IMG/VR virus record: IMGVR_UViG_3300027736_002828
Location: 1-23,673 of that record
Length of the DNA: 23,673 nt
Direction: 5' to 3' (one strand)
Origin: a virus
This document shows, piece after piece, positions 6,089-23,673 of this stretch. The position numbers and the translations under genes were made by a program. The notes beneath the pieces are model-generated. The model made no database searches. It was given only the letters and a program-made list of their open reading frames with translations, and was not told the DNA's origin. Positions within the stretch are counted from its first letter, which is position 1. The number at the start of each line of letters is the position of its first letter.

Positions 6089-6643
6089 TTAACCTTCTGT
6101 TACAATAATAAAGTTTTTATAGTACTCCAATAACTCAGAACTTATATTTGCAGTAACATACGTTGAAAATGATATATTATTAGATAAAACAATTGACCCA
6201 ACTTTACATCTTCCATAACCTATTGGAACAGCAACATTTCTCATTGTAACGTTTTCATAATTACTAAATAGCCGAGAAGTTGTTTTGACATCTGTAGGAG
6301 ATTTTGGTGTTAATAATTTTGTTATTAACATTTGAATTCCAGTGCTTATTAACATTAAAGCTATACCGATAGCCAATTCAGCAGAACCAAAAATAAATGG
6401 AACGACTTCAACTTTTGAATTTTTCTTCAAAATTGGAGAATTCAAATACTCTGGAGGCATGATTTTATCATCTACGTAAATAATAAAATGACTTAAATAT
6501 TCATTTAAAGTTCCTAAAGCCGATACCAATTTATTACTATTCGCTTCAATAGCTTCAAAAATTTCTAATACAGAAAAAACATTTAAATTCCATTCTGTTC
6601 TTATAAAATCTTCAAAGATACCATGTAATTTTACATTAACCAT
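6089..6643 (-). CDS. Tail assembly protein, lambda gpI-like (ubiquitin-fold N-domain plus hydrophobic segment)
   Basis: A 184-residue protein lying between a JAB protease and the gpJ-like tip gene, the lambda position of gpI. Residues 1-85 fit the beta-grasp (ubiquitin-like) domain known from gpI proteins: MVNVKLHGIFEDF, a helix around SVLEIFEAIEA, then HFIIYVDDKIM and SKVEVVPFIFG. Residues 86-112 are a Gly/Ala/Leu/Ile hydrophobic helix (GSAELAIGIALMLISTG), also typical of the family. The C-terminal part (about 113-184) contains NVAVPIGYGRCKVGSIVLS, a segment commonly seen near the end of gpI or the beginning of tip proteins. In lambda, gpI is needed for tip assembly and is not found in the finished virion. 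It starts at ATG 6643, 4 bases after the upstream stop, without a Shine-Dalgarno. Assignment rests on order plus fold-like pattern. Confidence 0.75.
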   Translation of the reverse strand: MVNVKLHGIFEDFIRTEWNLNVFSVLEIFEAIEANSNKLVSALGTLNEYLSHFIIYVDDKIMPPEYLNSPILKKNSKVEVVPFIFGSAELAIGIALMLISTGIQMLITKLLTPKSPTDVKTTSRLFSNYENVTMRNVAVPIGYGRCKVGSIVLSNNISFSTYVTANISSELLEYYKNFIIVTEG

Positions 6644-6647
6644 ATAC

Positions 6648-6980
6648 TTATTTACACTTTATTTCTTTAAATTCGTCAGAATCTAGCACATATAATAACA
6701 TATTCATATTATGATATTTTTGGTAATAAAGATCAACATTAGAAAAAAATCTCTCAGATTTATGATTATGGAATAAATATTTTATTTTATATTTTTGTTT
6801 TATATCGAGATAATCTCTAGGAGAAATTACAAAATAATTCACAGAATCAGGATGTTTATTAACGACAGGTAAAAAAATTAATTCTCCAGCATCCTCAACA
6901 ATAAAGCCGCAGTTTTCAACTAAAGGGTTTTTATTGCAATACGATTTAATGTGATGCAATAACTCAGGATTTATTGTCAT
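6648..6980 (-). CDS. JAB/JAMM metalloprotease, N-half of lambda gpK (no NlpC/P60 domain)
   Basis: A 110-residue protein with a full JAMM zinc site: Glu22 in VENCGFI, then His71 and His73 in FHNHKSERFFSNVD, Ser80 and Asp83. The HxH-to-Ser spacing is one residue shorter than the most common form. Lambda gpK joins a JAB domain to an NlpC/P60 domain; here only the JAB part exists and the gene ends with a short EIKCK tail. Next to a ubiquitin-fold gpI-like protein, the enzyme may process that partner or another tip protein, as has been proposed for JAB/beta-grasp pairs in phages. I chose ATG 6980, which overlaps the gpL-like gene by 17 bases. A TTG at 7007 in the same frame would add nine residues (LVVFRRHFN) unlike the family and enlarge the overlap. 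Confidence is high for the fold, moderate for the function. Confidence 0.86.
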   Translation of the reverse strand: MTINPELLHHIKSYCNKNPLVENCGFIVEDAGELIFLPVVNKHPDSVNYFVISPRDYLDIKQKYKIKYLFHNHKSERFFSNVDLYYQKYHNMNMLLYVLDSDEFKEIKCK

Positions 6981-8031
6981 ATTGAAATGTCGACGGAAAA
7001 CCACCAAACGGTAAAGCTTTATTAGATATTACATTACTGTCTTTAACGATATAATCTTGAAATCTTAATAAACAACCCCTTAAAGTTTTAGAGCATTGAT
7101 CTTGTTTCCATACGTCTGTATTCATATCTGGCTGTTTATTGATAACATTGCTTTCTATGCAAACAAAGAAGTTTTTAGATTTATTCGATAAACTTACAGT
7201 TGAAATATTAGCTTCATTAGTTAATACATTAGGTAAATAATCTAAATAAACAAAATCACCAGAATTATAATCTACTGTTGGAGACCATTGACCACTATAT
7301 TTTAATGTAGATAAACCATATGAATTATTTGCTAAATCAGTTTTATAAGTAGATAAAAATGTTTTATCGTTTTCATCTGCTATTGGAATCCCAATATCAT
7401 AAGAATTTAATGATAAAAAATAGTTTTTACTTGGTGATGCGTTAGGTGAAAATTGAGGAATAATCACAACTGGACCTTCATAATCTGAAGTGTTTCCATA
7501 ATTACATCCATGACATCTATAAGACCAAGAGCAAGTATCGTTTGTTATTTTTCTTGCTGGTATATTCAAATTTTGTAAATCAATTTTCGTTGACAACTCA
7601 ATTTCAACGTGTTCTTTATTTTCAAATTTCTTTAAATTTACAATAAATTCATCAAAAGCAATATAAGTTTTAAAATTAGAAACGCCAAATGGATTTATTC
7701 CATCATCAAAATTTTCAATATCCAAATCTTTAGCCAATATTTTTTTTCTAATAAAAGAATTTCCAATTAAATCAGATCTGTCTTTTAAAATATATGAAAT
7801 ATAATTATTTACATTTGCAATTTTAATTGTTGATTTAGATTGTTTTCCGTTTGAAGAAGACTCTATATTAGATAATTCACACGGAATGAACACATAAGGT
7901 TGACCTTGAAATATTATATCGCGAGAAAAATTCTTTGAACCATGAAATCTTAAATAACCCTCTGTGGCTTCTAATTGTAATTCAAAAAGATCTAAAACGA
8001 CATAATTATCTAATTTAAAAAAAGTGTTCAT
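6964..8031 (-). CDS. Minor tail protein, lambda gpL-like Fe-S tip protein with inserted carbohydrate-binding-like module
   Basis: Lambda gpL (232 residues) is a tip protein whose C-terminal domain binds an iron-sulfur cluster. This protein has 355 residues. Residues 1-155 form the beta-rich N-domain, with YVFIPCELSN and a central DEFIVNLKKF. The C-domain has Cys167, Cys173 and Cys176 (DTCSWSYRCHGCNYG) and then Cys313 and Cys320 (QCSKTLRGCLLRF), the two cysteine clusters expected of gpL. Between them about 135 residues are inserted. Residues 246-312 (QWSPTVDYNSGDFVYLDYL ... FVCIE ... WKQD) resemble the CBM5/12 chitin-binding module pattern, with its Trp, Tyr-x-x-Gly-Asp and final Trp. The order gpL, JAB, gpI, gpJ supports the call. 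It starts at ATG 8031, 4 bases after the previous stop. Fe-S binding and sugar binding are inferred, not shown. Confidence 0.82.
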   Translation of the reverse strand: MNTFFKLDNYVVLDLFELQLEATEGYLRFHGSKNFSRDIIFQGQPYVFIPCELSNIESSSNGKQSKSTIKIANVNNYISYILKDRSDLIGNSFIRKKILAKDLDIENFDDGINPFGVSNFKTYIAFDEFIVNLKKFENKEHVEIELSTKIDLQNLNIPARKITNDTCSWSYRCHGCNYGNTSDYEGPVVIIPQFSPNASPSKNYFLSLNSYDIGIPIADENDKTFLSTYKTDLANNSYGLSTLKYSGQWSPTVDYNSGDFVYLDYLPNVLTNEANISTVSLSNKSKNFFVCIESNVINKQPDMNTDVWKQDQCSKTLRGCLLRFQDYIVKDSNVISNKALPFGGFPSTFQYDNKS

Positions 8032-15395: not shown

Positions 15396-16310
15396 TTAAC
15401 TATTTAAATAACCTTTATAATTAAGTTTTACACTCAAAATATCATCTGCTGATGAATTAAATTCTTGCGATATCATTTTAACGTTAGAAAAACTCTGATT
15501 AAATATGGTAACTCCGTTATTCGCGTTATAACCCTCTAAGTCAGCAGTCACTAAAGTAGTAGTTTCAAATATTTTTCCTTTTATAGTTATATTAAAACTT
15601 GTGTCTATATCATTAGTTAATATATTATATAATGATTTACTTTGATAATCGTCCACTTCTAATCCAAAACTTGCATTTATTTCTATTGGAGTGTTTAATA
15701 ACACTTCGCTTGGAATATAGTTTGGAATTGGTGCTACTGGACCTGTGGGACCAGAAAAAGAAATTCCACTTTGATTTAATGTGTATATTGGTTGTTTCGG
15801 ACAATTAATAGAATAGTCAAAGCTAGTCACTCTATTTGAAGAAGATCCACTACAAGTTAATGTAATGTCTTTGACTTGTGGAACAAATAATTCTGGCGGT
15901 TTAAAATTACCTGACGCATCATAACTTGGACCCAAATCTCCATAAACAATTATATCTGCTGTTGTTGAAGGTATTTCACCAACAGAACACGATAAAGAAA
16001 AAGAATTTAAATAACCAGATAAAAAACCTAATTTTTTTCCATTATAATTTATACTCCCTTTGAAGGATTTTGCAGTTTTATTGGCGTTTTCACCAGTAAA
16101 AGGCAAAAAAGGATCATTATATAATAAATATTTATTAATAGAAAAATTTGCAATCGGCACTTCAGCAATTACTTGTTTATTATATCCAACACCTATTGTT
16201 TTGATAGGTTCATATTTTATATTATAACTACCATCAATAGATGTTATTCCAGAAATAGTGGTATTATTCAAATAAAATATATTTTCGTAATTAAGTAATG
16301 CGCTTTTCAT
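15396..16310 (-). CDS. Tail tube-like / distal tail structural protein
   Basis: A 304-residue beta-rich protein immediately downstream of the tape measure gene, where siphoviruses place distal tail proteins. It appears to hold two related beta-domains. The first (about 1-130) contains SFSLSCSVGEIPSTTADIIV and ends in YGDL. The second (about 145-304) contains RVTSFDYSINCPKQPIYTL, a PSEVLLNTPIEINASFGLEV strand, ITIKGKIF and a final KMISQEFNSSADDILSVKL. This second pattern is like tube proteins, where a strand with P-I-Y is followed by EV...P-I-E and a Ser-Gln-x-Phe-x-Ser-Ser strand near the end. A short proline/glycine linker (SGPTGPVAPIPNY) lies between parts. The start is ATG 16310, one base after the tape measure stop. 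Distal tail or additional tube ring is the likely role; the exact family is uncertain. Confidence 0.68.
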   Translation of the reverse strand: MKSALLNYENIFYLNNTTISGITSIDGSYNIKYEPIKTIGVGYNKQVIAEVPIANFSINKYLLYNDPFLPFTGENANKTAKSFKGSINYNGKKLGFLSGYLNSFSLSCSVGEIPSTTADIIVYGDLGPSYDASGNFKPPELFVPQVKDITLTCSGSSSNRVTSFDYSINCPKQPIYTLNQSGISFSGPTGPVAPIPNYIPSEVLLNTPIEINASFGLEVDDYQSKSLYNILTNDIDTSFNITIKGKIFETTTLVTADLEGYNANNGVTIFNQSFSNVKMISQEFNSSADDILSVKLNYKGYLNS

Positions 16311-16311
16311 T

Positions 16312-19300
16312 TTAATTTCTTATTCCTGCTAATGAACCTCCAAATTGTTTTTCTTTTCTTATGACCTCAGTTACTACAGCATACATTCTAGTATTTAAGT
16401 TCTTAGAAAGCTCAATATCTTGTTGCTGATAACTTGTAGTATTAGCGCCCATTTTTATTGATCCATCTCTTTGGACACTTGTATTGAAGTTAAATGAATT
16501 ATTTGCATTCGTATTATTATTAACTGTAGAGTTACTATTTCCAGCGCCGCTAATTGATGAACCACCGCTTTGCATACCAGTTCCGTATCTTTTCACCATT
16601 GGAGAATCATATAGTCCGCCTTCCATATAACCAGGAATTGTATCTGATAAACGAGAACCTATTAATCCACCAGTTTGTCTTCCATTCTTTTTAAAATCTG
16701 GCGCATATGGATTAGCACCATAAATATTTGAACTATAAAATGGTTTTGAAGTTAAACTTCTAAAACCAGTTTGTGGAGCGCCACCAGTATATTCGAAATT
16801 TTTACCCAATAACCCTGACTTTTGATAACTAGCTAATTTTCCCATTTCTGAATTAGTCATGCCAGTTCCTCCTGTTGCTTGAACTTTTGCAGATAATTTT
16901 TGTGCATTAGTCGCTTTCATATTAGAAGCCACATTAGAAATCCCTGCGCCAATAGCTATTGTTGCAGCAGCAGCTACTAAACTACCAATCATTGCTGCTT
17001 TTTGTTTTTTTGCTTCTAATTTTTTGGCTCTATCTTCTGCGGCTTTTTGTTTTGCAACATCTGATAATTCATTATATAATTGACTATTATCCAATCCTTC
17101 ACTAGTCATATACTTTTCCATATTTGCAAGATTATCTTGATCTGATTTAGAACTTGCTAAATCAAAACCAAAAGAACCACCAGAAGCAAAACGAGGCGCA
17201 GCGCTAAAATTAAGAGAATCTAAAGCGGAAGGACCGCCCATTGCCATTACCGCATTTCTATTTAATACATATTCACCATTCTCAAGCATAGCTGGATATT
17301 TATCGCCAGTTCCAGCGCCTGATATATACATACCTGATTGAGCGCGAATATAACCTCCAGTTTGCGCTCCAAAAATACTTCCCAAGCCAGATCCACTTAT
17401 TATTTTAGATATTCCAGTATTCATTAACTGGGTACTAAATGTATCTAAAAATTTAGAAGCAACACCCATTAATGCTGCATCTAGATTATCAGTTTCTCTT
17501 ATTGTAGCTTTAATAGCATCAACCATTCCATCTCTAAAAAGCATAGGCGTATCTTTTGCCAATCTATTTAATCCAGTATCAGCATCTTCTTGTATTTGAT
17601 CGAAACCTTCTTTGAATCCCATTCTTATTGACTGTCTATCTTGAGCTTCTTGTCTAACTTTGCCATTTAAAATTTCTTGTAATTTTTGTTGTTTATCAAG
17701 TTCAGAAGTATTATCTTGCAAAGTTTGTCTTATTTGATATTCGAAGTCTGCTAATTTTTTAGCTTCATCAGATCTTGGATTTACTAATTGTCTCGCTGTT
17801 CTAAGCTCATCTGCGACTCTTTTAGCATCTTCAAGATTATTAATTGTAGGATTAATGTTAGAAATAGCATTTTTAGCGGCATTCTGGTCTTTAGTTAAAG
17901 GCTCTGTTAAATTTTCTATACCGCCACGATACATTGCAAATTCATTTAGAGACCCTCTGGCTTTAGTTAGACTATTTAATCTTGTTTGTTGTTGATTAAT
18001 ACCTAGGTTTTCGTTATTTTTTTGAATTTCAAGATTCGCTTTACCAGTGACGCCAAGTCCATAAAAATTAGCGTCTCTAGATTTAAAAGCATCTATTCGT
18101 TGCGAGTCAATTTCTAAACTATTACGAAAATTTTGCTCTGCACTGGCGGTTTCAAGAACGATTCTTAATCTATCATTATATAGTTTATTAGCTTCACCAA
18201 GTTGTTTTGCAGCTTGTTCACTAACGCTTAAATTAGCTTTTAAAGTTTGCTGTTCTACTTCTTGATCATTTTTTAATTTATCTATAATTCCTAATTGAGC
18301 GACCATTGCATTATTGACGTCTTGATTACCTAAAACAACGTCTTTTGTAATATTTCGGATTTGCTGTAATTTTGCTTCATATGTATCAATGTCTTTAAAT
18401 TGAGGAATACTAACAGTTGACAATTGATTTAATCTAGCAGAATTTTTTGTATATGAATTAATATCAAAATCTTGTGGAATTAAATCTTTGAATAAATCAG
18501 GTCTTAATAGTACATCTTGAACAGAACCTTCAAATGTACTAGGTATAGATAATGATAATTTATCTAATTGAGTTTGTTGAGCGTCTTCTAAATTTTGTTT
18601 TATTGCAGTAATTTGTTTTTTTAAAAAATCTTCTCCCGGTGCAAAAACCGCTTCTCTACTTGTTAGTTGAGTACTATCCAAAGCGTTCTGATCAATTGCT
18701 GCTTTCTTGTCATTAATTTGTGATGGCGACAGTGCAAATCCAAAACCAGCTTTTTCAGAATTAGCTTTTTCTCTCGCCGTTTTAATTTGCCTTACTGCGC
18801 TTGATGCATTTAAAATTTTATTTCTTTCAAGCTCTCTATTTATGAGTTGACCTTCTAATTCAATTAAAGCTTGAGTGCTTTCGGCTCTTCTTTGCGACAT
18901 TTTTATTTCTAACTCTACTAATGTCAATTGTTGCTTTTGTTTTGCGGACAAAGAAACCGTACTTTTTAGTTGTTGAATTAATTGTGCATTAAATTCAGCT
19001 ATTTTTTCTGGGTCTCCTACAAACCCAGCGTCTTTTGCATTTTTTGTGGAAGACGTTTTTGTTATTAAATCTTCTAGTGCTTGTTGTTGTGTTTCAGGAT
19101 TTTGTAAATTAGCCAATATAGGTTTTAAAGTTTTTTCTATAATATCTTGATTTCCGCCTCCTAATCTTTCGAATATTTGTTTTCCTGATGTGTTAATTAC
19201 ATCTGAAGACAAACGCGTTCTTTCGTTTTGCTGAGACATCGCTGTCTGTCTCAGTTTAACTTCAGCTTGCCTTCCTGCGACTTCCAAAGGACTAGTAATT

Positions 19301-22300
19301 TTATCAATAAACTCTCCAACCGCACTGTCCAATACGTCTAGTCTAGCAGAATCAAATTCTTTTTCTTGAATCTGCATGGACGCATTAAAAATATAATCAT
19401 CTATTCCTTTACGAAGATTCAACAATAATTCGCGAGAATTAAATTGAATAGCTTTTGATTTATCGATAGTGGTTTTAAAATTTTGCTGGGTTTTATCAAA
19501 ATATCTTTGAGTTATTTCTTGCATGTTATCAATAAAAAATGTACCCTCTGTTCCCATTTCTTGTATTCTGTTGTCCCCTAAAACGGCGAATTCTTCTGCT
19601 ACTTTTTTAGACATACCATTTTTTAAACCAATATTTGTTAAAGCCGTTTCACCTGTAACTCCAGCTTGCAGTTCTTTTTGATAATCCGTCGCGAAAGATT
19701 TAGTTTGATTTTCATCTAATCCGCTTTGTTTAAGCATATCAAAAAACCCTTGAAATTGAACAAAAGAAGTTTGTAAATTAGCTTCTGTGACTTTTTCTAT
19801 TTTTGCGGTGCTTTCGTTAACGTCATAACCTTTCTTTTTTAACTCATTAACCCTTGTCGCAGTTAATTCGACAAATGGTCGTTCTTGTTTTTTGTAACTA
19901 GAAGATAAACTTTTAATTCCAGAGATTAAAGAAGCTTCTTTTGTAAATTCTTGAATTGCTTGTTGCATTTTTCCTACATCGCCAGAAGCTTCATTAAATT
20001 TTCTAGCCAACTCAGGAGAACTTTCACTTAATTTTTGAAAAGTCTCTGATAATTTATATGTGGCTTGATTTAATAAACTTTCATCTTTTACACTTCCTAT
20101 TTGAGACAACTGATCAATGTAAGATTTAGCACCCTCTACCGTCTGTGTAGATGCAGCTCTGTACGATTCCGCTGCATTAGCTAAATCCGAAATAGAATCT
20201 TGAGCGCTAAGAGCCGCTTGCCCTAGTCCAACAATAGCTCCAACAGCCGTTCCTATTCCAGGACCACCAAGTGCAGTGCCAACAAAAGCGCCTGTTGATA
20301 ATCCAGTTAAAATTGAACTCGGAGCTGATGAAGCAAACCTTTCTGAAACGGACATGTCTTCCCTTCCTCTTCCTCTAGACACTATCTGCTCTAACATACC
20401 ACCAATCATTGGCGCTGCTAATTGAAAACCAACTCCGCTTAAAGCTTTTACTGACTGATTAATTCTAGTCCCCCTTCTTCTACCTGCGAATCCCCCAAAA
20501 ACGCCTCCAATTTGCTCTTCTAAAGAACCACCGTTTGATCCAAATCTTTTTTGATATCTAGCTGCTGTTTTTGGATCATTCGCTAATTCTTGCTTAATAC
20601 GCTGTTCTCTTTGTTCGCTAGAAAGATTCTTTAGATCTTGACGTCTAGTCTTTTTAGCTTGTGTTTTTGCTGCTGCTGCCGCTTCTGCTGTTGCTTTCGA
20701 CGCTGCTGCCGACGCTGCTGCCGACGCTGTTGCTGCTGTTGCTGCTACTGCTGCCGCTGCTGCTTGATCTCTAGTTTTCTGTGCTAAGAGCGCTTGAGCT
20801 GTGGCGTTGTCTGTAATTGATTTTCGAAGAGCTGTATTAGCCAGTGTAACAATATTTGCAGATCCAGTATTAACCTGTAGAACGCGAGCGTTTTGCATTA
20901 TCTGAAGCTTAAGAGCATTTTGTTCTTTACTCGTTAAAGTTAAATCTTGTGTTAACTTCTTTAAAGCCTGATTCATTTCAACAAACGCTCTACGATCTAC
21001 GTCGGGTAAAGCTTTAGATGATACGCCAAAAGCATCTTGAGATTTAACTGTCGCAAAATTAGGCACAAATCCTCTATTCATTAACCCAGCATCTTTCTGC
21101 CCTCTCATTGAATCACTTAAAGCGTTACTTAAACCACCATGATCAGATATTGCGGAACTGAATGTTGGCTGACTCTTGTTTCTAATGTGTGGGAAAGGCT
21201 TATTATCGAATACGGCTTTTTCTCCGCTCATGCTTTCTTCTAAGCCCATTACTGCTTGTTTATACGCAAAGTTAGGAAGAAATCCTTTAGCGAAACCAGC
21301 GAAGCCGTTTCTTCCTTGAGAATTCATAAATCCATTTAATACGTTTAGACCGTTTGGACCGTTTAACTTTGATAGATTTGTTTTTGGATGTGTTAAAAAC
21401 CTTAATTCTCCAGAAGTTAAATGACGACCAAAAGAAGATTCAATATCTTTTATCAACTTCATCAAGTCGCCAGAATAATGAACTGAATTTTGACTCAAAG
21501 TATCTACGTCAATTAAATCAGCAAAATTAGGTATAAAACCTTTGCTATGTGTTGTTGTCAATTCTAATAAAGAATCTCTAAGATATTGTTGTTGCTTGGG
21601 ATCTATAAGTAAATTTAATAATTGTTCTTTATTTAATTTTTTACTAGCTCCTTTAGGATCAACTAAATTACCAATAGCTGTTTTAGCTAATTTAACTCTG
21701 CTTAAACCTTGTGGAAAAGCTAAACCTTTATCTTGAGGTAAAAGTTCTCCAGTAATAAATAAATCTTTATCTTTGCCAATTATTTTTTTAGCTTTTTCAA
21801 TAATACCAGAATAAAGAATATTAGAAACACTACGTTTTTTAGATGCTGGATCTTTTATAGGATAATTGCCGCGATCCATTGACTCAATTGATAATTTGTT
21901 TTTATTTAATTCTCCATAAATAGATGAGCCATAACCAGCAGTGGCTTGTAATTCTTTTGCAAAATTAGGAATAAAACCTCCAGAAGCTTCTGCTCTATAA
22001 AAACGAGGATTATTAACATATGAAGTTAATAATTCATTTGTTTTTTGTGAAAGTACTTTAAGTAATTCAGGACTATTTTTAGCAATCTCATCATAATTTG
22101 TTGCTGCTAAAGGTAAAAACTCTTTACCTAAAGCGCTCATATATTGTAAATGCTGTGGATTTCCAGGTTCGTTAAAAACACCCAATAACTCTCTTAATCT
22201 AGCAGCAGCTTTTGGATTTTTTTTAACAAAATCATTATATTTTTTAGTAATAATTCCTGTTGCACTGCCTCCACTTTGTGAATCTTTACGACCACCTTTA

Positions 22301-23673
22301 ATTTCTATACCAACTAAATCAAGTAAATCTGTAGGATCAGTATTAACTAATTCCATAACCAAATCTAAAGACGCTTGGCCTTCTATAGTATCTGGTTCAA
22401 GAGATTGACCTGAAATTAAAGATTTTATTTTAGATTTATTAGCTTGTAAACTCATAGAAGAACGAACAAATTTCTCATATATTGGACCAAAAACATTTCC
22501 GTCACCAGCTTTTTTATTATAATCTGTTTTATTAGTTCTGAATTGTGTGGAGCTAAAAGTATCTGCCACGCCTGCCCCTGCAATATTTAATGTTGGCTGT
22601 TTTGCGTCGAATGATGGATTAGCGTATTTTTTAAACCAAGGTATTCTCAATATGCTTATAGGAGGAGCAAAGTTTGGAATAAAACCATTAGCAGAAGCTC
22701 CGATTTCGCTTCCAAATGGTTGATAAACAGGAAGAGTTCCAAAGTCTAAATCTTTTTGCGCCACATCTTCCGCTCTGCCATTAATATTTATTCTAACTGC
22801 TTTTTTAATCAACTGACTTAAATACGCCTCACCTGCTTTAACTTCAATACCTTGAATAGCATTCGGCCCCGTTGGTATTAAGTCTGCGGCTGACGTTGAT
22901 TTGTCACTTATTGTATACGCTCCAGATATTCCTGGAAGTTTTGAAATTAATTTTTCATAAGCGTCTCCGACAAAATTTTGATAATCTCCATTTAAAGAGT
23001 TTTTAAAACCTTCCGAAGTTGTAATTAATTCACCCTTTTTAGAGCCACTTTTATATTTAAAAAGGTTATTGTTTTTAGCGGCTTCTTCATTTTGTGATAG
23101 TTCATATTTCTTTTGTAAGTCTTTTAATGTAAATCCAACTTTAGATGTAGTTGTCTTAAAAACTGCCTCTAAATCAGCATCTGTTAAACCAATACTTTGG
23201 CCTGTTTTAATTAAATTTTGGTTCCCTTGAATCGAACCAAACCACATAGCAGACACGGCTGAATCAACATCTTTTTTTTGCAAATATTTTATAACATCTA
23301 TTTTTCCAGAAATCCAATCATAGACAGCATTTGGTTTTTTAGTTTTATTGTCAAAACCAGAATCTAAATTTTTTCCTACTAAATCTAAATTTTTTTCAGC
23401 ACCAATATCCGATGAACTCATTTGCATTATCTTTATAGCATGATTACTATAAGCTCTTTGTTTTTTGTCAACGCCGCCTCCATTTGGAAGCTGAAAAGTA
23501 TAATCTTCTTTATTTAATTTTGCAAAATTAGGTATAAATCCACCAGCCGTATACGGATCAACACCTGTTCTACTTATAGAATTCTGTCTATGTGCGCGGC
23601 CAGCTTTTGATCCAGCAGGAGGATTAATAAAAGGTTGAGCAAAACCGGGGACGTATTTAACATCTTCCGCAGT
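16312..23673 (-). CDS. Tail tape measure protein, very large, with motif-delimited N-terminal module array (partial, runs off right edge)
   Basis: The frame is open from the TAA at 16312 to the right edge, giving 2453 visible residues. The Met at 23427 is internal; 82 residues precede it and the true start lies outside. Numbering from that Met: residues 1-800 are an array of modules separated by GFIPNFA-type motifs (also one before the Met); residues 885-930 are an Ala-rich, charged linker; 997-1075 are hydrophobic and Gly-rich (GFQLAAPMIGGML, GAFVGTALGGPGIGTAVGAIVGLG), as expected for a membrane-inserting segment; about 1090-2000 are heptad-like, Gln/Glu/Lys-rich coiled coil. The C-terminal part has the tape-measure signature PAMLENGEYVLNRNAV (near 17247-17298), another hydrophobic helix (near 16935-16997) and the ending VVTEVIRKEKQFGGSL. 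It sets tail length and helps DNA delivery. The N-terminal array is not part of any tape measure family I can name. Confidence 0.9.
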   Translation of the reverse strand, partial: TAEDVKYVPGFAQPFINPPAGSKAGRAHRQNSISRTGVDPYTAGGFIPNFAKLNKEDYTFQLPNGGGVDKKQRAYSNHAIKIMQMSSSDIGAEKNLDLVGKNLDSGFDNKTKKPNAVYDWISGKIDVIKYLQKKDVDSAVSAMWFGSIQGNQNLIKTGQSIGLTDADLEAVFKTTTSKVGFTLKDLQKKYELSQNEEAAKNNNLFKYKSGSKKGELITTSEGFKNSLNGDYQNFVGDAYEKLISKLPGISGAYTISDKSTSAADLIPTGPNAIQGIEVKAGEAYLSQLIKKAVRININGRAEDVAQKDLDFGTLPVYQPFGSEIGASANGFIPNFAPPISILRIPWFKKYANPSFDAKQPTLNIAGAGVADTFSSTQFRTNKTDYNKKAGDGNVFGPIYEKFVRSSMSLQANKSKIKSLISGQSLEPDTIEGQASLDLVMELVNTDPTDLLDLVGIEIKGGRKDSQSGGSATGIITKKYNDFVKKNPKAAARLRELLGVFNEPGNPQHLQYMSALGKEFLPLAATNYDEIAKNSPELLKVLSQKTNELLTSYVNNPRFYRAEASGGFIPNFAKELQATAGYGSSIYGELNKNKLSIESMDRGNYPIKDPASKKRSVSNILYSGIIEKAKKIIGKDKDLFITGELLPQDKGLAFPQGLSRVKLAKTAIGNLVDPKGASKKLNKEQLLNLLIDPKQQQYLRDSLLELTTTHSKGFIPNFADLIDVDTLSQNSVHYSGDLMKLIKDIESSFGRHLTSGELRFLTHPKTNLSKLNGPNGLNVLNGFMNSQGRNGFAGFAKGFLPNFAYKQAVMGLEESMSGEKAVFDNKPFPHIRNKSQPTFSSAISDHGGLSNALSDSMRGQKDAGLMNRGFVPNFATVKSQDAFGVSSKALPDVDRRAFVEMNQALKKLTQDLTLTSKEQNALKLQIMQNARVLQVNTGSANIVTLANTALRKSITDNATAQALLAQKTRDQAAAAAVAATAATASAAASAAASKATAEAAAAAKTQAKKTRRQDLKNLSSEQREQRIKQELANDPKTAARYQKRFGSNGGSLEEQIGGVFGGFAGRRRGTRINQSVKALSGVGFQLAAPMIGGMLEQIVSRGRGREDMSVSERFASSAPSSILTGLSTGAFVGTALGGPGIGTAVGAIVGLGQAALSAQDSISDLANAAESYRAASTQTVEGAKSYIDQLSQIGSVKDESLLNQATYKLSETFQKLSESSPELARKFNEASGDVGKMQQAIQEFTKEASLISGIKSLSSSYKKQERPFVELTATRVNELKKKGYDVNESTAKIEKVTEANLQTSFVQFQGFFDMLKQSGLDENQTKSFATDYQKELQAGVTGETALTNIGLKNGMSKKVAEEFAVLGDNRIQEMGTEGTFFIDNMQEITQRYFDKTQQNFKTTIDKSKAIQFNSRELLLNLRKGIDDYIFNASMQIQEKEFDSARLDVLDSAVGEFIDKITSPLEVAGRQAEVKLRQTAMSQQNERTRLSSDVINTSGKQIFERLGGGNQDIIEKTLKPILANLQNPETQQQALEDLITKTSSTKNAKDAGFVGDPEKIAEFNAQLIQQLKSTVSLSAKQKQQLTLVELEIKMSQRRAESTQALIELEGQLINRELERNKILNASSAVRQIKTAREKANSEKAGFGFALSPSQINDKKAAIDQNALDSTQLTSREAVFAPGEDFLKKQITAIKQNLEDAQQTQLDKLSLSIPSTFEGSVQDVLLRPDLFKDLIPQDFDINSYTKNSARLNQLSTVSIPQFKDIDTYEAKLQQIRNITKDVVLGNQDVNNAMVAQLGIIDKLKNDQEVEQQTLKANLSVSEQAAKQLGEANKLYNDRLRIVLETASAEQNFRNSLEIDSQRIDAFKSRDANFYGLGVTGKANLEIQKNNENLGINQQQTRLNSLTKARGSLNEFAMYRGGIENLTEPLTKDQNAAKNAISNINPTINNLEDAKRVADELRTARQLVNPRSDEAKKLADFEYQIRQTLQDNTSELDKQQKLQEILNGKVRQEAQDRQSIRMGFKEGFDQIQEDADTGLNRLAKDTPMLFRDGMVDAIKATIRETDNLDAALMGVASKFLDTFSTQLMNTGISKIISGSGLGSIFGAQTGGYIRAQSGMYISGAGTGDKYPAMLENGEYVLNRNAVMAMGGPSALDSLNFSAAPRFASGGSFGFDLASSKSDQDNLANMEKYMTSEGLDNSQLYNELSDVAKQKAAEDRAKKLEAKKQKAAMIGSLVAAAATIAIGAGISNVASNMKATNAQKLSAKVQATGGTGMTNSEMGKLASYQKSGLLGKNFEYTGGAPQTGFRSLTSKPFYSSNIYGANPYAPDFKKNGRQTGGLIGSRLSDTIPGYMEGGLYDSPMVKRYGTGMQSGGSSISGAGNSNSTVNNNTNANNSFNFNTSVQRDGSIKMGANTTSYQQQDIELSKNLNTRMYAVVTEVIRKEKQFGGSLAGIRN
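20638..20775 (-). repeat. Ala-rich low-complexity segment in the tape measure gene
   Basis: Codes for about 46 residues, mostly Ala with some Thr, Ser, Lys and Arg (for example AAAVAATAATASAAAS). On the plus strand it appears as runs of gctgct and gccgac units, locally much richer in GC than the rest. It marks the boundary between the motif-delimited module array and the coiled-coil ruler, and is likely a helical linker. Confidence 0.85.
22228..22506 (-). other. PD-(D/E)XK nuclease-like module 2 within the tape measure protein
   Basis: Residues 308-400 counted from the Met at 23427. It repeats the layout of module 1: NVFGPIYEKFV (Glu318), ASLDLVMELV (Asp355) and LVGIEIKGGR (Glu375, Lys377). 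The two modules lie on either side of the GFIPNFA copy at 22686-22666 and share the G-x-x-Y-E-K and G-I-E-[VI]-K-[AG]-G patterns, which suggests an old duplication. Confidence 0.5.
22783..22995 (-). other. PD-(D/E)XK nuclease-like module 1 within the tape measure protein
   Basis: Residues 145-215 counted from the internal Met at 23427. The stretch has GDAYEKL (Glu158), then AADL (Asp182), then GIEVKAGE (Glu195, Lys197), the order and spacing of the core of PD-(D/E)XK nucleases: a helix with Glu, a strand with Asp, and a strand with E-x-K. All the predicted acidic and lysine residues are present. Assignment is by motif only. Confidence 0.5.

Follow-up and report, generated by a model that had tools for sequence, protein, structure and literature searches.

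Tape measure proteins (TMPs) are usually taught as rulers and pore formers. Among described systems, the polyvalent proteins of phages and conjugative elements (Iyer et al. 2017, PMC5512222) are, according to the accessible text of that paper, long multidomain proteins encoded in virion gene neighborhoods, in which conflict enzymes (GNATs and others) are strung together and thought to be injected and then separated. They resemble the TMPs examined here, in which variants of the heptapeptide GFIPNFA border one cassette after another (hereafter motif TMPs), in combining several enzyme domains in one polypeptide among virion genes. In the accessible text TMPs go unmentioned and separation is inferred from built-in metallopeptidase domains, whereas motif TMPs have a fixed peptide at the borders of nearly all their cassettes, and no such peptidase is general among them.

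Mycobacteriophage TMPs such as TM4 mt3 (Piuri and Hatfull 2006, PMC1796659) share with motif TMPs the presence of a catalytic domain inside a siphovirus TMP, but the available part of that report describes a single peptidoglycan hydrolase that aids entry, with no array, no border peptide and no nucleic-acid or acyl-transfer enzymes. The Sle1-type effectors of actinobacterial contractile systems (PMC13277306) likewise pair a TMP-like carrier with exchangeable functional domains; as far as the accessible portion of that source goes, they belong to a bacterial contractile nanomachine and have one C-terminal domain and no border motif, while motif TMPs belong to sheathless phages (no sheath in 40 contigs) and carry internal arrays. 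In polymorphic toxin systems (PMC3482391), toxin-type domains are also swapped as cassettes on a conserved delivery backbone, but these are systems of bacterial secretion with one C-terminal toxin and its immunity gene, in contrast to the several internal cassettes of motif TMPs.

Neither arrays of exchangeable enzyme cassettes in phage TMPs nor this border peptide are described in the accessible text of PMC5512222, PMC1796659 or PMC13277306, and a literature search confined largely to open-access journals found no description of GFIPNFA. According to a 2023 survey of mosaicism in phage proteins (PMC10684548), genuine recent mosaicism could not be confirmed in TMPs; motif TMPs would supply clear examples. 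They look like cargo carriers of the tail, and the very recent swapping of their cassettes is visible as a change in identity from ~30% to 98% within one 21-base motif. The border motif also offers a simple search key for many uncharacterized, potentially injected phage proteins, as well as a tag for testing cargo loading.

The GFIPNFA motif and its setting

The window, the whole stretch of DNA analyzed here, is a 23,673-nucleotide fragment of an uncultured virus (IMG/VR record IMGVR_UViG_3300027736_002828, positions 1–23,673). Its minus strand encodes a lambda-like siphovirus tail module, with the TMP followed by tail genes through to L-, K-, I- and J-like proteins. The PhageMin_Tail part of the window TMP lies off the contig, and the protein was assigned via L152, an IMG/VR relative with the full gene (2726 aa) that also carries a homologue of the second gene downstream of the window TMP. 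The N-terminal part of L152 (first 629 residues) matched PF10145 PhageMin_Tail in Pfam (E 6.1e-28) and was 24–28% identical to annotated TMPs of cultured phages. Because the first motif of L152 stands at residue 630, after PhageMin_Tail, the motif zone occupies the middle of the TMP; the initial annotation had placed it on the N-terminal side of an ORF that runs off the contig. The window protein is a siphovirus TMP, and a cargo bay in its middle appears fairly probable. The features of the window TMP, from its visible N-terminal end, are as follows.

16312–23673, minus strand: TMP ORF with 2453 visible aa, its 5' end lying beyond the contig
23542–23673, minus strand: C-terminal end of the gamma module (...NTAEDVKYVPGFAQPFINPPAGSKAGR...), nearly identical in L152 and also present in L127 and others
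23521–23541, minus strand: border motif 1, GFIPNFA, in frame
22687–23520, minus strand: cassette 1, 278 aa, nuclease-like set E240, D264, E277-x-K279
22666–22686, minus strand: border motif 2, GFIPNFA, in frame
21979–22665, minus strand: cassette 2, 229 aa, nuclease-like set E400, D437, E457-x-K459
21958–21978, minus strand: border motif 3, GFIPNFA, in frame
21541–21957, minus strand: cassette 3, 139 aa, no assignment
21520–21540, minus strand: border motif 4, GFIPNFA, in frame
21286–21519, minus strand: cassette 4, 78 aa, no assignment
21265–21285, minus strand: border motif 5, GFLPNFA, in frame
21073–21264, minus strand: beta module of 64 aa, a recurrent element that in most cases stands before the last motif
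21052–21072, minus strand: border motif 6, GFVPNFA, in frame, the final copy, followed by the motif-free C-terminal part
16312–21051, minus strand: C-terminal part, motif-free, with coiled-coil and hydrophobic stretches by eye

All six copies of G-F-[ILV]-P-N-F-A reported in the initial annotation were confirmed in frame on the minus strand, with start-to-start spacings of exactly 285, 236, 146, 85 and 71 residues. The shrinking of module length that had been read as a pattern is a coincidence of the window TMP (no such order exists in its relatives), and the supposed degenerate seventh copy (...VKYVPGFAQPF...) was rejected. It is instead an internal part of the gamma module, a small recurrent module of ~75 aa that precedes a motif and likewise stands ahead of the first motif in L152 and L127.

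A degenerate DNA pattern for the motif gave six matches in the window versus none in 100 dinucleotide shuffles, ruling out a chance repeat. A DNA-level repeat is ruled out by codons that differ between copies: the motif itself is conserved, as had been proposed, but as protein and not as DNA, with all four codons of Gly, Pro and Ala in use. This free variation of motif codons from copy to copy shows that selection maintains the peptide.

The earlier impression that the motif occurs in other environmental phages proved correct. A scan of IMG/VR for DNA encoding GFIPNFA recovered at least 110 motif-bearing ORFs of at least 300 aa; among the matches listed (at least 120 stretches), 96 ORFs hold the motif more than once and the logo reads A-[AS]-x-G-[FYH]-[IV]-P-N-[FY]-[AS]. 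In 40 long contigs, 39 of which contained PF10145, a relaxed pattern gave 109 matches, 108 of them in frame inside the ORF with PF10145 and the remaining one on a contig whose TMP start lies off its end; the reversed control pattern gave none. The motif is confined to TMPs. Its first copy usually falls at residue 530–650, the conserved N-terminal part being ~540–650 aa long, and the last copy is followed by a motif-free C-terminal part of ~900–1800 aa. No tail sheath gene was found in the 40 long contigs, and the three small modules had no match in 50,697 cultured-phage records. A longer motif pattern matched bacterial genomes 27 times, and only L127 and L139, both metagenome bins, look like such TMPs.

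Searched against 50,697 phage records, the window TMP had one match (Synechococcus phage S-BM3), limited to a short C-terminal stretch of a protein without the motif; no relatives of the window's C-terminal part were confirmed. The C-terminal element common to the window TMP and the S-BM3 protein, GDKYPAMLENGEYVLNRNAVMAMGG (17248–17307, TMP residues ~2123–2142), resembles by eye the small modules that end in GFIPNFA.

Exchange of cassettes at the motif

Homology connected 83 of 94 N-terminal parts and 81 of 99 C-terminal parts of these proteins, whereas the zone between was not connected. We located the ends of strong matches in an all-versus-all alignment of the ORFs, with motifs masked and breaks made unique per ORF. 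For matches of at least 70% identity, 94% of breaks lay within 10 residues of a motif, compared with 23% when points were placed at random in that zone; at a threshold of at least 60% identity the figure was 82%, and unmasked alignments agreed with the masked result. Among close relatives (L087, L101, L109 and L018), the N-terminal parts are 94–98% identical, yet the cassettes differ in kind and order.

The comparison of the window with L152 resolves these seams further. Amino acid identity is 97% at the gamma edge, ~20% in cassette 1, ~91% in cassette 2, low in cassettes 3 and 4, above 90% in the beta module and ~20% beyond it. Nucleotide identity, measured over 60 bases on each side of the motifs, changes from 28% to 98%, 97% to 30%, 28% to 93% and 83% to 37%, and the change falls within the 21 bases of the motif codons. 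Synonymous divergence is 0.05 in cassette 2 and 0.40 in the beta module, and such unequal values indicate that the shared pieces have different histories. With homology breaks and identity switches both falling at motifs, the array of motif-bordered modules described in the initial annotation stands: the motif zone is a cassette array, GFIPNFA is the border peptide of nearly every cassette, and TMPs that otherwise differ have exchanged cassettes along seams at the motif.

Enzyme signatures in the cassettes

Pfam matches in the cassettes comprised GNAT acetyltransferases, a staphylococcal nuclease (SNase, 1.9e-9), a cytidyltransferase-related region and HATPase (3.7e-5). The GNAT and cytidyltransferase-related matches exceeded Pfam cut-offs; Acetyltransf_1 scored 22.8 bits in L152 and 30.7 in L063 versus a gathering score of 20.7, and the L152 GNAT cassette is not in the window, where cassette 3 sits in its slot with no significant homology between the two. 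A P-loop cassette family was recognized by its conserved residues and by matches to P-loop proteins of the PDB, and a HAD family by the conserved residues DxDxT...T...K...D; PDB searches with the HAD and SNase cassettes returned no match. Most cassettes had no family match. In L063 a single inter-motif segment (L063:428-1939) seemingly combines a GNAT with a zincin-like stretch (HELFH) and a HAD-like start (DWDGT); of these, the GNAT alone was confirmed. An ART-like reading of an L040 cassette, made by eye, gained no support from a PDB search.

The commonest cassette family, present in 57 of 114 ORFs, has a nuclease-like residue set of the form E...D...[DE]xK. G103, E107, D128 and K154 are invariant in 38 sequences with a mean identity of 16%, and D or E stands two residues before the K in every displayed alignment row. 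In PD-(D/E)XK nucleases, an alpha-beta core fold bears the conserved catalytic residues E, D and (D/E)xK in this order. The residue set is of this type, but a confident structure model of the family (pLDDT 80) matched no solved fold, and we therefore call it nuclease-like only; when profiles of the nuclease-like families were searched against the PDB, the result was either nothing or short matches of low score to lectins and proteins that similarly come from seeds. The signature is also present in window cassettes 1 and 2, which may be considered nuclease-like by their residue sets. Their structure model was poor, with a pLDDT of 39, cassette 1 had no family match and no confirmed relatives, and the family of cassette 2 (91% amino acid and 96% nucleotide identity to its L152 counterpart) was not significantly related to the large nuclease-like family by hhalign.

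Selection on most cassettes is purifying, with dN/dS of 0.06–0.40 in eight of nine cassette pairs; the exception, window cassette 2 versus L152, had a dN/dS of 0.82 on few changes. Across the TMP family, with its GNAT, SNase, nucleotidyltransferase, P-loop and HAD cassettes, several unrelated enzyme domains are encoded in one polypeptide among virion genes, while the window alone has only nuclease-like residue sets.

A proposed cargo carrier and the role of its border peptide

The explanation we favor, with moderate confidence, is that the TMP acts as a polyvalent carrier of injected cargo, with GFIPNFA as its border peptide. Folded or foldable domains, many with enzyme signatures, are strung between the conserved N-terminal part and the C-terminal part, with G[FYH][IV]PN[FY][AS] marking the edge of nearly every cargo domain. 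In other phages the TMP exits the tail before the DNA, so cargo of this kind would reach the host first: the cassettes would travel in the tail lumen, precede the DNA out of the tail together with the TMP and act on the host as putative early effectors. Delivery into the host along with the DNA is thus predicted from TMP ejection in other phages. If motif TMPs are trimers, as TMPs are in other phages, the tail lumen may be too narrow for three folded copies abreast.

The least certain step is that the motif would act as a specific recognition peptide. Cleavage that frees the cargo, at maturation or after ejection, is the role to which we incline, tentatively. A processing site best explains why the border peptide stands on either side of cargo of any kind yet does not occur in the ruler parts. 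Cleavage would thus be slightly favored over docking to a dedicated assembly factor, with docking close behind and a mere solubility or unfolding spacer, which seems improbable, below both. A dedicated protease gene was not identified beside the TMP, and no protease was common to all contigs. JAMM (Prok-JAB) turned up in 14 of the 40 long contigs at E ≤0.001, with a Pfam library that missed the window's own divergent JAMM-like gene; a JAMM protease as universal partner of the motif is not supported.

Docking, which we regard as possible though unlikely, would make the motif a binding peptide for a tail chaperone or tube protein that keeps the cargo-loaded TMP soluble or threads it into the tube, with no cleavage. 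Tail assembly chaperones are usually encoded directly upstream of the TMP, and two uncharacterized proteins of ~259 and ~337 aa hold this place in 20 of 20 contigs (contig set L153–L192; e.g., L171:5154-5891 and L171:5947-6960). Neither had an informative family match, nor any match in 50,697 cultured-phage records. The pair is a candidate for both tail assembly chaperones and motif partners such as docking would require, but this chaperone role is a prediction from gene order. The recurrence of [IV]PNFA inside small modules, where no G[FYH] precedes it, also speaks for docking and is unpredicted by a pure cleavage-site model. However, the motif is absent from both the ~550 aa N-terminal part and the C-terminal part of 900–1800 aa, where chaperones or the tube would bind too; this absence speaks against tube-docking sites spaced generally along the ruler and links the motif to cargo borders.

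It is quite improbable that the motif is a neutral linker or recombination seam that persists since crossovers there preserve the reading frame. Such a seam would account for the swapping of cassettes at the motif and for nucleotide identity that switches exactly within its 21 bases, but the residues are fixed while codons differ freely between copies, which indicates that the peptide itself is selected. Nor would a bare seam require one and the same peptide in TMPs of ~20% identity, and only two of the 27 genome matches to the longer pattern look like such TMPs. Least probable of all are inserts that serve as structural spacers tuning tail length or rigidity, their enzyme-like residues being relics of domestication: the lack of a family match for most cassettes and the slight constraint on window cassette 2 versus L152 would fit, but the retained GNAT, SNase, P-loop and HAD signatures, the E/D/[DE]xK set invariant across 38 diverged sequences and the purifying selection on most cassettes would not.

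Returning to the cargo-carrier explanation, we suggest, with some hesitation, that its fullest form would be a phage delivery system not described before: a cassette-built effector polyprotein, the borders of which are read by a dedicated phage factor, such that changing host-directed enzymes are loaded into the tail and released at infection.

Several minor features of the window's tail module complete the description. The gene after the window TMP (15396–16310) falls in the same blast cluster as a gene lying upstream of the TMP in most relatives, which suggests that tail proteins may be duplicated on both sides of the TMP. The K-like protein (6648–7007) is reduced to a JAMM-type domain, with a phrog_30 match, no Pfam match and an HxH...SxxD-like stretch; the adjoining I-like protein (6089–6643) has a weak match to ThiS (ubiquitin-like). 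At the left edge, a tail protein (2–700) closes with an extended repeat of GSSGTSG type, cut off by the contig end; the remaining frames of this repeat yield spurious ORFs.
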